Shown one piece after another: positions 18,299-23,401 of a stretch of DNA of 64,000 nt (position 1 is the stretch's first letter; each line of letters starts with the position of its first letter). Position numbers and translations under genes: made by a program. Source of the DNA: Microcoleus sp. AS-A8. GTDB taxonomy: Bacteria > Cyanobacteriota > Cyanobacteriia > Cyanobacteriales > Coleofasciculaceae. Where the stretch lies: positions 248,001 through 312,000 of the forward strand of contig JAMPKV010000002.1 in assembly GCA_039962225.1 (NCBI GenBank), given 5' to 3'. The notes beneath the pieces were generated by a model. That model was not told where the DNA came from. It saw only the letters and a list, made by a program, of their open reading frames with translations, and ran no database searches.

Positions 18299-18559
18299 AT
18301 GTCTGAATCTTCTGTTAGTGTCACTGTCAAACTATTCGCCGCCTACCAAGAAGCCTACGGTGTTCCAGAGCTAGTGCTGAAATTTCCTCCACAAACATCT
18401 GTATCTGCTGTACTAGACACCCTGATCACCGAACACCCAGAACTCTCTCAGTGGCGCAACCTCACCCGCTTTGGTGTCAATCTCCAGTTCGTTGAGTCAG
18501 ACACTATTCTCCAAGATGGCGATGAAGTAGTACTAATTCCACCCGTTAGCGGTGGCTGA
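18299..18559 (+). CDS. moaD: MoaD/ThiS-family sulfur-carrier protein
   Basis: An 86-residue beta-grasp protein from the ATG at 18299 (an upstream in-frame ATG at 18254 would add 15 poorly conserved residues). It begins VSVTVKLFAAYQEAYGVPEL and ends DGDEVVLIPPVSGG; the terminal Gly-Gly is the site that is adenylated and converted to thiocarboxylate. In family members it supplies sulfur for molybdopterin (MoaD) or similar pathways. No other molybdopterin gene is near, so the moaD symbol is by similarity only; a private sulfur carrier for a neighbour is possible. It is the first gene of a run that includes the ABM protein, thrC and a second carrier. Confidence 0.8.
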   Translation: MSESSVSVTVKLFAAYQEAYGVPELVLKFPPQTSVSAVLDTLITEHPELSQWRNLTRFGVNLQFVESDTILQDGDEVVLIPPVSGG

Positions 18560-18601
18560 ACAGCTTCTGGTCGTAGCGACTGATTAGGAAATTGCCATTT
18601 T

Positions 18602-18652
18602 ATTCAATTAATTGAATATTATACTACATATTAGTAAATTAATTGAATATTA
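18602..18652 (+). promoter_or_regulatory. AT-rich palindrome and 31-bp-spaced direct repeat, candidate operator
   Basis: A perfect 16-bp palindrome (ATTCAATT/AATTGAAT) lies at 18602-18617. The 16-mer AATTAATTGAATATTA occurs at 18606-18621 and again at 18637-18652, 31 bp apart, close to three helical turns. The second copy ends 27 bp before the ATG of the ABM-like gene, and the region lies after the moaD stop. The phasing suggests two bound dimers of a regulator on one DNA face. The regulator is unknown. Confidence 0.5.
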
Positions 18653-18678
18653 AACTATATTTCCAGGAGAAGTCTTCC

Positions 18679-19158
18679 ATGACGTTTATTTCAGTGACAC
18701 GTCTACGTGTGCGATCGCCTCTATTCCTGCCACTGTTCTTATGGAATGTTTGGCTGACGGCAAGGCAGAGTACCAACACTCCTGGATTTGTGGGAGGGCA
18801 GCTTTTGAGAGACGCGAACCAAACGTTTTGGACAATAACCGCTTGGGAGGAACAGGCGGCAATGAAGATGTATCGCAATTCAGGCGCACACCGCAGCGTG
18901 ATGCCGCGTATTCAGGATTGGTGTGATGAAGCGTCTGTGGTTCACTGGCTACAAGAAAACCGTACCCTCCCGAATTGGGACGAGGTTCACCGCCGCATGG
19001 TGGCAGAAGGTTTTCCGACTAGATTAGCTCACGCCTCTCCAGCTCATCTTCAGCGAGATATCCCCAAACCCTCGTCATCTAAAGGATTAGTGTTACGTCC
19101 CAAAACAACACCAATAGAGACGAGGAACTCGCATCAGGGGAAACTCTACGAAAAATAA
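18679..19158 (+). CDS. Antibiotic-biosynthesis-monooxygenase-like (dimeric alpha/beta barrel) protein
   Basis: The ATG at 18679 has a strong AGGAGAAG site 7-14 bases upstream, giving 159 residues. The first 100 residues fit the ABM/dimeric ferredoxin-like barrel: FISVTRLRVRS strand, then NTPGFVGGQLLRDANQTFWTITAWEEQAAMKMYRNSGAHRSVMPRIQDWCDEASVVHW split across residues 31-90, with the typical 'FxxIxxWxxxxAMxxFxxxxxH' pattern. Members degrade heme or oxidise small aromatics, or only bind ligands. The last 50 residues are Pro/Lys-rich and likely disordered. It follows moaD by 119 bp. Substrate unknown; some close relatives are filed as DUF3291. Confidence 0.65.
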   Translation: MTFISVTRLRVRSPLFLPLFLWNVWLTARQSTNTPGFVGGQLLRDANQTFWTITAWEEQAAMKMYRNSGAHRSVMPRIQDWCDEASVVHWLQENRTLPNWDEVHRRMVAEGFPTRLAHASPAHLQRDIPKPSSSKGLVLRPKTTPIETRNSHQGKLYEK

Positions 19159-19179
19159 ACCCGACAAAAAAAGTCGGGT
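19159..19179 (+). terminator. Hairpin before thrC (terminator or attenuator)
   Basis: Perfect 7-bp arms ACCCGAC / GTCGGGT with an A7 loop begin immediately at the end of the ABM gene (stop at 19156-19158) and end 78 bp before the thrC ATG. Only a short T run (TGTTTG) follows, so termination may be partial. It could separate expression of the two genes. Confidence 0.5.
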
Positions 19180-19257
19180 ATGTTTGACGCGGTTTGTAAC
19201 CCGTGTTACTATCAGACGATTGTTGACGGCTCTAACGGACTACAGAGGATTGCAGCC

Positions 19258-20562
19258 ATGACCCAGGCGACCCAGCACCAGACACAACAGACATCTGCCA
19301 CATTTAAAGCCCTCAAATGTAAAGAATGTGGGACAGAGTACGAACCCCAAGCCATACACGTTTGTGAAGAGTGTTTTGGTCCCCTGGAAGTAAGCTATGA
19401 CTACGACGCCCTCCGCCGTCATGTAACCCGCGAAACGATTCAGGCTGGCCCGAATTCAATTTGGCGCTATCGTCCTTTCCTACCCGTCATGACCGATAAC
19501 CCCATTGATGTGGGTACAGGTATGACGCCCTTAGTGAAATCGAACCGCTTGGCACGACGCCTGGGTCTGAAAAACCTCTATATCAAGAATGATGCCGTTA
19601 ACATGCCCACCCTCAGCTTCAAAGATAGGGTGGTGTCCGTTGCTCTGACTAGAGCGAAAGAACTTGGTTTCTCGACGGTATCCTGTGCTAGCACGGGTAA
19701 CTTAGCTAATTCTACAGCTGCGATCGCAGCTCACGCCGGTCTGGATTGTTGCGTCTTCATCCCCGCCGATTTAGAAGCGGGTAAAGTTCTCGGTACCCTA
19801 ATCTACAGCCCCACCGTTATGGCTGTGGAAGGCAACTATGACCAAGTCAACCGCCTCTGTTGTGAAGTTGCCAATACACATGGTTGGGGATTTGTCAATA
19901 TCAACCTGCGTCCTTACTACTCCGAAGGCTCTAAAACCCTGGGCTATGAAGTGGCTGAACAATTAGGCTGGAAGCTACCGGATCACATCGTTGCCCCTCT
20001 AGCTTCGGGTTCCCTATTCACCAAAATCTACAAGGGCTTCCAAGAATTCATTCAAGTGGGTTTGGTTGACGATAAAAAAGTCCGCTTCAGTGGCGCACAG
20101 GCAGACGGCTGTTCCCCCATCGCTCAAGCGTTCCGGGAAGGACGGGACTTTGTCACCCCGGTTAAGCCCAACACCATTGCTAAGTCGATTGCCATTGGCA
20201 ACCCGGCGGATGGCGTGTACGCGGTGGACATTGCCCAAAAAACCGGTGGCAATATTGAATCCGTCAGCGATGCAGAAATTGTGGAAGGGATGAAGCTGTT
20301 GGCGGAAACTGAAGGCATCTTCACCGAAACCGCAGGTGGCACGACAATCGCTGTGTTGAAGAAATTGGTAGAAGCTGGGAAAATTGATCCCGATGAAACG
20401 ACAGTGGTTTACATCACGGGCAACGGTTTGAAAACTCAAGAAGCCATTCAAGGCTACATTGGGGAACCCTTGACGATTGAGCCGAAGTTGGATAGTTTTG
20501 AGCGGGCATTAGAGCGTTCGCATACCCTCGACCGCCTAGAATGGCAACAAGTTCTGATTTAA
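19258..20562 (+). CDS. thrC: Threonine synthase
   Basis: A PLP enzyme that converts O-phosphohomoserine to threonine. From the ATG at 19258 it has 434 residues; the frame is open upstream to 19180 but that part is not family-like. An N-terminal zinc-ribbon (C21, C24, C36, C39; CKECG...CEECFGPLEVSYDYD) is typical of cyanobacterial/archaeal-type ThrC. The PLP Lys is K122 in LSFKDRVV, and the phosphate-binding CASTGNLANSTAA and the later GNGLK motifs are present. The next gene is a CysO-like sulfur carrier, and moaD lies two genes upstream. That context is odd for plain threonine synthesis and is discussed in the findings. Confidence 0.93.
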   Translation: MTQATQHQTQQTSATFKALKCKECGTEYEPQAIHVCEECFGPLEVSYDYDALRRHVTRETIQAGPNSIWRYRPFLPVMTDNPIDVGTGMTPLVKSNRLARRLGLKNLYIKNDAVNMPTLSFKDRVVSVALTRAKELGFSTVSCASTGNLANSTAAIAAHAGLDCCVFIPADLEAGKVLGTLIYSPTVMAVEGNYDQVNRLCCEVANTHGWGFVNINLRPYYSEGSKTLGYEVAEQLGWKLPDHIVAPLASGSLFTKIYKGFQEFIQVGLVDDKKVRFSGAQADGCSPIAQAFREGRDFVTPVKPNTIAKSIAIGNPADGVYAVDIAQKTGGNIESVSDAEIVEGMKLLAETEGIFTETAGGTTIAVLKKLVEAGKIDPDETTVVYITGNGLKTQEAIQGYIGEPLTIEPKLDSFERALERSHTLDRLEWQQVLI

Positions 20563-20687
20563 GTTTTAACTGGGGTAGGGGCGGTGCCTCTTGACTAAAA
20601 CTTAGGGTGCCTCAGGCGAGAGTTGTCACCCAAAATTCTGACAGCTCTCATGATTAACCACAACTACCAACAAACAATAACGAGTCT

Positions 20688-20963
20688 ATGGCTATAACAG
20701 TTCTGATTCCTACTGCTCTGCAAAAATTTACCAACAACCAGTCTTCTCTCGACTGCACTGGCAACAGTGTGGCTGAGTTGATTGAGTCCATGGAAAGTAA
20801 TTGTCCTGGGATTAAATCCCGCCTGTGTGATGAGAACGGTAAGCCGCGTCGCTTTTTGAACTTCTATGTGAACAGCGAAGACATCCGATTCTTAGAAGGT
20901 ACCGATACACCTCTCAAAGATGGCGATGAAGTGAGCATTGTGCCGGCTGTGGCAGGTGGTTGA
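20688..20963 (+). CDS. CysO-like MoaD/ThiS-family sulfur carrier
   Basis: A 91-residue beta-grasp protein: [15 protein letters not shown] start, then [18 protein letters not shown], and the ending [14 protein letters not shown]. The central and C-terminal parts strongly resemble mycobacterial CysO, whose Gly-Gly thiocarboxylate delivers sulfide to a PLP enzyme (CysM) for cysteine synthesis. Here the neighbouring PLP enzyme is thrC, 125 bp upstream on the same strand. Carrier chemistry is well supported by the Gly-Gly end; the acceptor enzyme is inference. No MEC+ (JAMM) protease or MoeB-type activator lies in the window. Confidence 0.85.
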
Positions 20964-21343: not shown

Positions 21344-22099
21344 ATGGCAGAAGAAAAAAGTCCTCAGCCAGAGGCAGAGGTAGCAGAAGTTACATCTCCT
21401 TCTCCCAATCCGAACGCTGGAGAATCGGGAACTCCAGCCGAATCGATCGAACATGCTCCAAGTTCGGATGAACCCCAGGCAACGGATTTTCCCTCCGCTA
21501 ACGCCCCCGATCCTACAGCCGCAAATCCAGATGTCAACCCCAACGCGACTGGGGATAAACCGACGGCTGTAGGTGAAAACAGCCAAACCACCAGTCAAAC
21601 CTCTGTTGAAGAGTCGGCTAAGACTGCTGAAGACGAAACTGGTAAAAAGCCGGCGGCGAAAAAGCCAGCAGCGGCAGGAGACAAGCCAGCAGCAGGCGCA
21701 AAAGCCAAGAAAGAGAAGCCGCCAGCACCTGAAGATAAGCCCTTCAATGAATTTATCGAGCAAGAATATTTACCAGCCTTGAAGAGTGCCTTGGCTGAAC
21801 AAGGCGTTAAAGATTTAGAGGTGACATTTGTCAAGGACAAAATCCAGATGTCTGGCTTAAGTCAAAATGGTGGCTGCTGGCAGGTAAGGGGAAACTGGCA
21901 AAGCGGACAACGTCAATTCAGTGTTTATTTCCCGGATGAGGATATCAACAAACAGAAAGCGTTCTCCTGTGCCACAAATGGCGCTAAGGCCAGTATTTTA
22001 GAGTCTTTCATGATTGATGAACGTAAAGTGACGCTAGACTTGCTGGTGTTTTACACGATCCAACGACTGAACGCTCAGAAGTGGCTAGCGTGGAATTAG
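21344..22099 (+). CDS. DUF2996 protein with long disordered N-terminus
   Basis: Residues 1-130 are Pro/Ala/Glu/Lys-rich and likely disordered, including a PAAKKPAAAGDKPAAGAKAKKEK basic segment. Residues 133-251 form the folded part: PFNEFIEQEYLPALKSALAEQGVKDLEV, KDKIQMSGLSQNGGCWQVRGNW, QRQFSVYFPDEDINKQKAF and the ending RLNAQKWLAWN, which match DUF2996. This family is found in cyanobacteria and plastid-bearing plants, so a photosynthesis-related role is plausible. It has no signal peptide. acsF follows 225 bp downstream on the same strand, which fits a link to pigment or photosystem assembly. Function is not known. Confidence 0.8.
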   Translation: MAEEKSPQPEAEVAEVTSPSPNPNAGESGTPAESIEHAPSSDEPQATDFPSANAPDPTAANPDVNPNATGDKPTAVGENSQTTSQTSVEESAKTAEDETGKKPAAKKPAAAGDKPAAGAKAKKEKPPAPEDKPFNEFIEQEYLPALKSALAEQGVKDLEVTFVKDKIQMSGLSQNGGCWQVRGNWQSGQRQFSVYFPDEDINKQKAFSCATNGAKASILESFMIDERKVTLDLLVFYTIQRLNAQKWLAWN

Positions 22100-22324: not shown

Positions 22325-23401
22325 ATGGTAGATTCTCTTAAAAAACCAGGCTTTGAAGAAATACGACCAGGGGTGAAAGTCCCGGCGAAGGAAACCCTAC
22401 TGACGCCCCGGTTCTACACAACCGACTTTGAAGAAATGGCGCGGATGGATCTCTCGCCCAATGAGGACGAGCTTTTAGCCATCCTCGAAGAGTTCCGCAC
22501 GGATTACAATCGTCACCATTTTGTTCGGGATGCCGAGTTTGAGCAGTCCTGGGATCACATTGATGGGGAAACCCGCCAATTGTTCGTTGAGTTTTTAGAA
22601 CGCTCCTGTACGGCAGAGTTTTCCGGTTTCTTACTCTACAAAGAACTGGGACGCCGTTTAAAAGACAAAAATCCCCTTTTGGCTGAGTGCTTTACCCTGA
22701 TGTCTCGCGATGAGGCACGTCATGCAGGGTTCCTTAACAAGGCGATGTCAGATTTCAACCTGTCGCTGGATTTGGGATTCCTCACTAAGAATCACAAGTA
22801 CACCTTCTTTAAGCCCAAGTTTATTTTCTACGCCACTTACCTCTCGGAGAAGATTGGTTACTGGCGCTACATCACTATTTACCGTCACCTGGAGAAGCAC
22901 CCCGAAGATCGGATTTATCCCATTTTCCGATTCTTTGAAAACTGGTGTCAGGATGAGAACCGTCATGGTGATTTCTTTGATGCCATTATGAAGGCTCAGC
23001 CTCAGTTTCTCAATGATTGGAAGGCGAAGCTGTGGAGTCGGTTCTTCTTGTTGTCGGTGTTTGCGACGATGTATCTCAACGACATCCAAAGGGCTGACTT
23101 CTACGCCAGTTTAGGCTTAGATGCCCGTGAGTATGATAAGTATGTGATTGAGAAGACGAACGAAACAGCAGCACGGGTGTTTCCGGTGATTCTGGATGTG
23201 GATAAGGCGGAGTTTTACGATCGCCTGGAAATTTGCATCAAGAATAATGAGAAACTAGGTGCGATCGCATCTTCCAACACGCCTAAATTCTTACAATTCT
23301 TCCAAAAACTGCCTCTCTACGTCTCAAATGGTTGGCAGTTCCTGCGGTTATACCTAATGAAGCCCATTGAGACGGCTTCTCTACAAGGGGTTGCCCGCTA
23401 A
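22325..23401 (+). CDS. acsF: Mg-protoporphyrin IX monomethyl ester (oxidative) cyclase AcsF
   Basis: A 358-residue diiron oxygenase that forms the isocyclic ring E of chlorophyll from Mg-protoporphyrin IX monomethyl ester using O2. Two diiron ligand motifs are intact: RDEARH (E130, H133) and QDENRH (E211, H214), with a further Glu pair (E92, E98 region) upstream. Length and motifs are normal for AcsF/CycI (ChlA). It works at the thylakoid membrane with Ycf54. Only one copy is in the window; cyanobacteria often keep a second, low-oxygen copy elsewhere. A strong terminator follows immediately. Confidence 0.97.

Follow-up and report, generated by a model that had tools for sequence, protein, structure and literature searches.

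How do cyanobacteria make homocysteine, the precursor of methionine? The question is raised by a locus of Microcoleus sp. AS-A8, lying within a stretch of 64,000 nucleotides (GenBank assembly GCA_039962225.1, contig JAMPKV010000002.1, positions 248,001 to 312,000; the whole of that stretch is termed the window below), in which a gene scored as threonine synthase is followed by a gene for a small ubiquitin-fold sulfur carrier. A first-pass annotation of this DNA had proposed that the carrier might feed the enzyme, and that sulfur transfer to O-phosphohomoserine would then yield homocysteine in place of threonine. Reportedly (Hasebe et al. 2024, AEM 90:e01247-24), such a reaction takes place in Streptomyces albulus, where an enzyme named MetM is said to turn O-phosphohomoserine into homocysteine with a thiocarboxylated carrier, MetO. 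The proposal agrees with that published route and with most of the comparative tests described here, and the locus very probably represents a cyanobacterial metM-metO unit that makes homocysteine. The idea of a carrier-fed enzyme of the threonine synthase (ThrC) type is itself already known; what is new is how well it fits cyanobacteria.

In the proposed mechanism, an E1 enzyme of the MoeB/MoeZ type, equipped with a rhodanese domain, would activate the Gly-Gly end of MetO and convert the carrier to its thiocarboxylate, and MetM would bind O-phosphohomoserine on its pyridoxal phosphate (PLP) cofactor and eliminate phosphate. The MetO thiocarboxylate would add to the unsaturated PLP intermediate on MetM, hydrolysis would free homocysteine, and homocysteine would be methylated to methionine, with threonine being made by the product of a second, canonical thrC gene. 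This chemistry, and the roles of the E1 and of a JAB protease considered below, are predictions.

To see how closely the enzyme and the carrier travel together, we compared 146 genomes from this phylum, 67 of them in the same class as Microcoleus and 79 outside it. The MetM type was found in 61 of the 67 class genomes (79-100% identity to the window enzyme, with expectation values (E) of 6e-233 or better), whereas the best match among the 79 other genomes reached only E 4e-86, with identities of at most 41% among the matches listed. MetO was present in exactly the same 61 genomes, and in 58 of them metO lay downstream of metM, on the same strand and within 498 base pairs (median gap 108 bp; 125 bp in the window), which bears out the conservation of synteny that the first-pass annotation had asked about. 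The pairing is not due to chance, since the two genes stand side by side in all but three of the 61 genomes encoding both, the exceptions having them 18 kb apart (G070), on separate contigs (G087) or 0.95 Mb apart (G079). Both genes are missing from six class genomes, namely five members of one family (f22; 1.7-2.6 Mb, probably marine picocyanobacteria) and G046. The odds of so exact a coincidence would be near 1e-8 if the losses were independent, which they are not, one family accounting for five of the six.

The enzyme clearly belongs to the threonine synthase family: five threonine synthases are its closest solved structures, and its family score lies far above the curated cut-off (Table 1). 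The label of threonine synthase in the first-pass annotation thus holds for the family and fails for the canonical enzyme, which is encoded elsewhere. The Microcoleus genome (7.75 Mb) holds two ThrC-family genes above the cut-off, that of the window and a canonical one on contig C11, and their products are 39% identical across the aligned part; all 61 MetM genomes likewise returned two or more matches to the window enzyme, one of them at 36-40% identity in at least 28 (counted by eye among the matches listed). A tree with 80 rows placed all 61 MetM sequences, including the window enzyme, in a single clade (support of 99 in the Shimodaira-Hasegawa approximate likelihood ratio test), with the cyanobacterial rows, Cyanobium included, nested inside it at a support of 100. 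That tree was built by a quick method that gave long-branch warnings, from 11 of 31 cyanobacterial MetM loci, 50 of 80 loci found by a scan of genome contigs (below) and 19 of 20 other ThrC loci, with S. albulus MetM not among the rows; the rows were picked by the motif FKDRVV of cyanobacterial MetM, and the sharpness of the separation is partly a product of that selection. The window enzyme is 47-76% identical to 31 rows with an adjacent MetO (Cyanobium included), 54-55% identical to four MetM of Thermomonosporaceae, and 33-36% identical to 14 canonical ThrC rows.

A comparison of the 61 MetM rows with those 14 rows, all of the phylum Cyanobacteriota and chosen with five more distant ThrC rows excluded, identified 26 positions that are at least 90% conserved within each group and yet differ between them, one of them being a gap in ThrC. 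At MetM positions 125, 126, 149, 150, 218 and 221, all 61 MetM rows carry V, V, L, A, R and Y, where all 14 canonical rows carry G, M, T, S, N and R, and the window enzyme departs from the canonical residue at every one of the six; the first two follow directly upon the PLP-lysine motif SFKDR. By sequence, the window enzyme is a member of a family separate from the canonical threonine synthase of the same genome.

The pair also recurs far beyond the clade in which it was first noticed. When genome contigs were scanned with a GC-rich DNA pattern encoding the motif FKDRVV-x-VA of MetM, at least 120 stretches were recovered, 80 of which were listed, and in all 80 the match fell inside the best MetM-type open reading frame. 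Of the 72 loci with 400 bp or more of sequence beyond metM, 46 showed a MetO-type carrier no further than 2 kb downstream (44 of 70 when two Cyanobium loci are set aside). Among the loci listed, those with an adjacent MetO came from eleven phyla: Cyanobacteriota and ten more, Actinomycetota, Chloroflexota, Dormiibacterota, Verrucomicrobiota, Acidobacteriota, Gemmatimonadota, Planctomycetota, Rokuibacteriota, Nitrospinota and Elusimicrobiota. The first-pass annotation had named a lack of conserved synteny outside the clade as grounds for refuting its hypothesis, and the hypothesis survives that check. Two loci displayed additional genes: a Verrucomicrobiales locus contains two tandem MetO-type carrier genes behind metM (L123:2120-2770), and a Chloroflexi locus contains a NIL-domain frame (53.7 bits) between metM and metO (L230:280-2246), suggesting that NIL proteins are connected with the MetM pathway.

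The regulation of these relatives provided an indication of their function. A search with Rfam models, covering 37 of the 80 listed loci, found an S-adenosylmethionine (SAM) riboswitch 5' of metM in 13 of 19 loci with an adjacent MetO (12 S-box elements and one SAM-alpha) and in 17 of 18 loci without one; the positive loci included members of the Actinomycetota, Chloroflexota (L108), Verrucomicrobiota, Planctomycetota, Elusimicrobiota and Gemmatimonadota. The presence of such an element before metM in 30 of 37 loci marks the metM homologues as methionine genes.

In cyanobacteria, the corresponding position is occupied by a different element. Of 61 metM leaders from cyanobacteria, 57 have a dyad with the consensus CCGAY-N7-RTCGG directly before a promoter-like sequence, with a near-match in three of the remaining four and a diverged dyad in the last (G036); in the window the promoter-like sequence after the dyad reads TTGACG-N17-TACTAT, and in 50 of the 57 leaders a TTGAC-type box stands downstream of the dyad at 17-18 bp from a -10-like box. 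A riboswitch was considered for the window leader and rejected, there being no Rfam support and the motif lying upstream of the -35-like box. An operator in DNA is favored over an RNA element because of that same placement, and because the A/T spacer of the dyad occurs in either orientation among genomes. The 25-bp palindrome thus looks like a putative operator for a regulator of metM, through which control by methionine would be exerted. No further copy turned up in the sequence examined: the dyad has one exact match in the window (a single match with two mismatches elsewhere is at chance level), the dyad matrix identified the metM site alone there (next best, 11.5 bits), no other match above 12 bits was found in the 1.2 of 2.6 Mb of genome G083 that were scanned, and in the other loci examined the strict pattern recovered sites upstream of metM alone. 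No conserved regulator gene was seen beside metM when frames shared by at least four of 30 loci, within 1.5 kb, were inspected by eye and without a domain search.

The carrier itself, described as CysO-like in the first-pass annotation, was confirmed as a ThiS-family protein whose nearest solved structures are 4n6e_B (81 bits) and 3dwg_C (78 bits). It ends in VPAVAGG. In the alignment of such carriers (A1) the last Gly falls outside the coordinates for most rows. As a separate observation, 14 of 48 MetO-type frames have additional residues beyond the Gly-Gly, L136 among them with 164. Carriers L139, L140, L142, L144, L164, L096, L104, L137, L150, L152, L154 and L174 have one to six, and would need to be trimmed.

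Candidates for the activating machinery are found on Microcoleus contig C5, where a JAB protease gene adjoins a gene for an E1 with ThiF and rhodanese domains, named MoeB by NCBIfam with MoeZ as second best; the E1 was found in all 16 genomes searched, of the 67. The available text of Iyer et al. 2006 (PMC1779556) already notes the arrangement of an E1-rhodanese gene with a JAB gene in cyanobacteria. Since mycobacterial MoeZR sulfurates both MoaD and CysO, according to the accessible portion of PMC3227635, it is plausible by analogy that one E1 serves both MoaD and MetO.

Two structures that we take to be CysO proteins, 4n6e_B and 3dwg_C, being the nearest solved homologues, it might be argued that the carrier is a CysO dedicated to cysteine synthase or to some other sulfur transfer, and that its place beside metM reflects operon economy. 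We consider this very unlikely, given that the carrier is found in the same 61 genomes as MetM and that no cysteine synthase adjoins it in the window; nor was a CysO-CysM-Mec+ cluster found there, the neighbors of metO being metM and DUF2996 and the JAB gene lying on another contig beside the E1. Somewhat in favor of that explanation, some Actinomycetota appear to have just a CysO available for MetM. When 35 genomes were searched, comprising 27 of those without an adjacent MetO at the MetM locus (one of them, L170, with an incomplete MetM locus) and eight controls, each contained a MetO/CysO-type match. The carriers were read in 22 of the 27 (L287-L308), and in 21 of those 22, L287 being the exception, JAB-like and cysM-like frames identified by motif flank the carrier, so that a MetM without an adjacent MetO may borrow the CysO of cysteine synthesis. 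Against the explanation by CysO, five Actinomycetota controls with an adjacent MetO (G258-G262) hold a second strong carrier elsewhere; G263, G264 and G148 do not.

The distribution of other methionine genes further sharpened the question of what MetM and MetO are for. All five f22 genomes, which lack the pair, encode MetA and two full enzymes each of the sulfhydrylase family PF01053 ('full' being a score over 380 bits); outside that family MetA was found in G036 alone, which has MetM and MetO too. MetX-like proteins of 435-455 bits occur in 12 genomes, all of them positive for MetM and MetO, with fragments in two more; these 12 are counted as full, the NCBIfam cut-off of 500 bits having been reached by no match and no control. 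By these measures MetA and a strong full MetX are both absent from 48 of the 61 MetM genomes (MetX fragments occur in two), and 41 lack a full PF01053 enzyme as well; if near-full or partial MetX matches at 102-117 bits, which were left uncounted (G048, G036, G115, G011 and G127), are real, those numbers become 44 and 37. In the Microcoleus genome, a search for strong MetX and for MetA found neither. A fair case can be made that many cyanobacteria form their homocysteine mainly through MetM-MetO.

Several observations weigh against reading the locus as a metM-metO unit that makes homocysteine, beginning with the selection of tree rows described above. The window locus has no SAM riboswitch at the Rfam gathering threshold (at E up to 1, an IS128 match alone appears, scoring 20.8 bits where the threshold is 80), and seven of the 37 relatives are likewise negative, including loci of the Nitrospinota, Rokuibacteriota and Acidobacteriota and three of the Chloroflexota. 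An adjacent MetO was not seen in 26 of the 70 non-cyanobacterial MetM loci. The co-occurrence profile contains few independent events, five of the six genomes without the pair being of one family, and a strong MetX or MetA, and with it the acylhomoserine route, accompanies MetM in 13 of 61 genomes. Microcoleus itself falls outside the 41, as it encodes one full PF01053 protein (L086:844-1965, contig C8); that protein resembles cystathionine gamma-synthase, scores below every NCBIfam cut-off shown, and could be a cystathionine gamma-lyase or a synthase that uses O-phosphohomoserine.

On the same side stands the presence of a different pathway, in which homocysteine would be formed from aspartate semialdehyde by a DUF39 protein together with a NIL/ferredoxin protein, leaving MetM-MetO as a back-up or in some other role. 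According to PMC5764234, that pathway has been demonstrated genetically in Desulfovibrio and methanogens, and Desulfovibrio needs DUF39 together with NIL/ferredoxin to make homocysteine. DUF39 (HcyBio; homocysteine synthase, L-ASST) was found in 61 of the 67 class genomes, the exceptions being G112 and the f22 family, and in a search of 22 genomes NIL genes were present in 11 of 11 class genomes outside f22 and in none of the five within it; Microcoleus encodes both, one of its NIL genes carrying two ferredoxin motifs (Table 1). In addition, DUF39 is present in G046, where MetM, MetO, a strong MetX, MetA and a full PF01053 enzyme were sought and not found, a case that favors either this pathway or auxotrophy. 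The cyanobacterial DUF39 proteins, however, differ at one residue: it was read for 24 genomes, Microcoleus included, out of the 61 positive ones, and all 24 have Glu where seven of seven Chloroflexota have Cys. That position is presumed, in a comparison made without the Methanosarcina sequence, to be Cys54 of the COG1900a type. In the Methanosarcina protein Cys54 is essential and a C54A variant non-functional, according to the accessible text of PMC12068725. A second conserved Cys (in TDCYP) is kept in all 24. On balance, DUF39 seems rather unlikely to be the route that supplies homocysteine in place of MetM-MetO.

The most direct information on a cyanobacterial homologue comes from Microcystis, in work by Kim et al. 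2025 (PMC12172450), cited here from those portions of the paper that are available. The Microcystis ThrC is 51.6% identical to MetM, and the product of its neighboring gene 47% identical to MetO; added threonine raises expression of thrC 10.5-fold and of the adjacent carrier gene 6.8-fold, and added methionine returns threonine-induced thrC to the control level. This response would fit a methionine-controlled unit if threonine starves the methionine branch. Two other results described there speak against that view of the response: other methionine-pathway genes fall with threonine, and alanine rescues the cells as methionine does. Three further results (PMC12172450) count against homocysteine synthesis: the enzyme forms threonine from O-phosphohomoserine (Vmax 0.0176 umol/mg/min); with Na2S it gave only an unidentified peak; and methionine is not raised in threonine-treated cells. 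The assay, as described in the same portions, was conducted without added carrier. A search of the open-licence literature found no report in which a cyanobacterial MetM was assayed with O-phosphohomoserine and thiocarboxylated MetO, and on MetM/MetO it found Kim et al. alone.

These data invite the explanation that the enzyme is a real threonine synthase, perhaps bifunctional, with the threonine deaminase activity that Kim et al. also report for the homologue (PMC12172450, available portions), and that the carrier is merely co-regulated; the high score against the threonine synthase hidden Markov model points the same way. We regard this as improbable. A canonical ThrC is encoded elsewhere in the Microcoleus genome and a second synthase, ThrC2, in Microcystis, the reported rate is slow, and methionine lowers the threonine-induced expression (the Microcystis data being from the same portions of PMC12172450); furthermore, the 26 positions conserved differently in MetM and canonical ThrC, the SAM riboswitches on MetM homologues, and the lack of MetM in the f22 genomes, which have a methionine route of their own, all argue against it.

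Compared with known systems, the preferred reading of a metM-metO unit is closest to that of S. albulus, with which the window shares a threonine-synthase-like enzyme and a carrier gene; the Streptomyces locus carries a SAM riboswitch, whereas the window has instead a palindrome upstream of the promoter. The chemistry of the actinobacterial CysO-CysM-Mec+ system can be likened to that of MetM-MetO by analogy. The likeness lies in the same type of carrier and in the adjacent JAB and E1-rhodanese genes of Microcoleus, and the difference in a partner that is ThrC-like and not CysM-like, in a substrate that would be O-phosphohomoserine, and in the placement of metO away from the JAB gene. In the HcyS-type route of Wolinella, a protein thiocarboxylate again supplies the sulfur of homocysteine, which is the point of likeness, and a MetY-type enzyme acts on O-acetylhomoserine, whereas no strong MetX or MetA was found in the Microcoleus genome. 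A 'protein thiocarboxylate pathway' is mentioned in the available part of PMC5764234. Canonical ThrC shares with the window enzyme its family, the SFKDR motif and a presumed substrate, O-phosphohomoserine, and differs from it in overall identity, in the discriminating positions and in having a separate gene in the same genome.

Table 1. Features of the probable metM-metO locus (window coordinates) and of two Microcoleus genes relevant to the DUF39 pathway (coordinates within the named loci)
Feature	Position	Strand	Basis or remark
MoaD-like carrier	18299..18559	+	ThiS family; best NCBIfam match moaD, 60 bits (below cut-off 66)
ABM/DUF3291-like protein	18679..19158	+	PF03992, 27 bits (cut-off 23)
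25-bp dyad AAACCCGAC-N7-GTCGGGTAT, proposed operator	19157..19181	+	core regex in 57/61 metM leaders
-35-like box TTGACG of metM promoter	19184..19189	+	consensus match
Extended -10-like box TGT-TACTAT of metM promoter	19204..19212	+	consensus match, 17-bp spacing
metM, threonine-synthase-family PLP enzyme	19258..20562	+	TIGR00260, 343 bits (cut-off 167)
metO, CysO-like ubiquitin-fold sulfur carrier	20688..20963	+	ThiS family, PF02597, 68 bits
DUF2996	21344..22099		downstream of metO
acsF	22325..23401		downstream of DUF2996
DUF39/COG1900 protein	L219:4726-5910 (contig C22)		Glu at presumed essential Cys position
NIL protein with two 4Fe-4S (ferredoxin) motifs	L228:791-1225 (contig C9)		contig differs from that of DUF39

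The limits of the unit were drawn from the same comparisons. The thrC-type reading frame opens at 19180, and the ATG at 19258 is the likelier start of metM because the conserved promoter-like element covers 19184-19212. The first-pass annotation had described two carriers bracketing the enzyme gene; the gene order is as stated, and both carriers end in Gly-Gly, but bracketing did not hold up as a pattern, a MoaD gene being found within 1.5 kb upstream of metM in just eight of 30 loci, the window counted. The MoaD gene was rejected as a member of the unit for that reason, and the ABM gene because it lies near metM in the window alone (the other 29 loci gave no tblastn match). The functional unit is metM and metO alone, and the two upstream genes are incidental to it. 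Three ThiS-family genes were found in the Microcoleus genome, encoding MetO, the MoaD-like carrier and one protein on contig C8, and as the MoaD-like gene is the only one of its kind there, its product probably serves as the MoaD that molybdenum cofactor synthesis requires. Downstream, a DUF2996-like frame (identified by eye) also follows metO in G079 (L089), the genome in which metM is 0.95 Mb distant. The frame neighboring the NIL gene on contig C9 appears by eye to be thioredoxin-like.

The textbook genes leave homocysteine synthesis unexplained in many cyanobacteria, as illustrated by the 48 MetM genomes described above, and the threonine synthase label that this gene receives throughout the class is probably a misnomer. 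A bolder version of the proposal, to which we would give somewhat less than an even chance, is that MetM-MetO is the sole working route in most cyanobacteria, that DUF39 has lost its role there, and that a dedicated methionine-responsive regulator acts on the palindrome with metM as its single target. If that were so, the 'threonine toxicity' of Microcystis would be methionine starvation, in which threonine shuts the aspartate pathway, O-phosphohomoserine is depleted and metM-metO is derepressed. More generally, the recurrence of the pair in eleven named phyla, cyanobacteria included, indicates that carrier-borne sulfur is in widespread use for methionine, and that sulfur may sometimes come from the CysO of cysteine synthesis.

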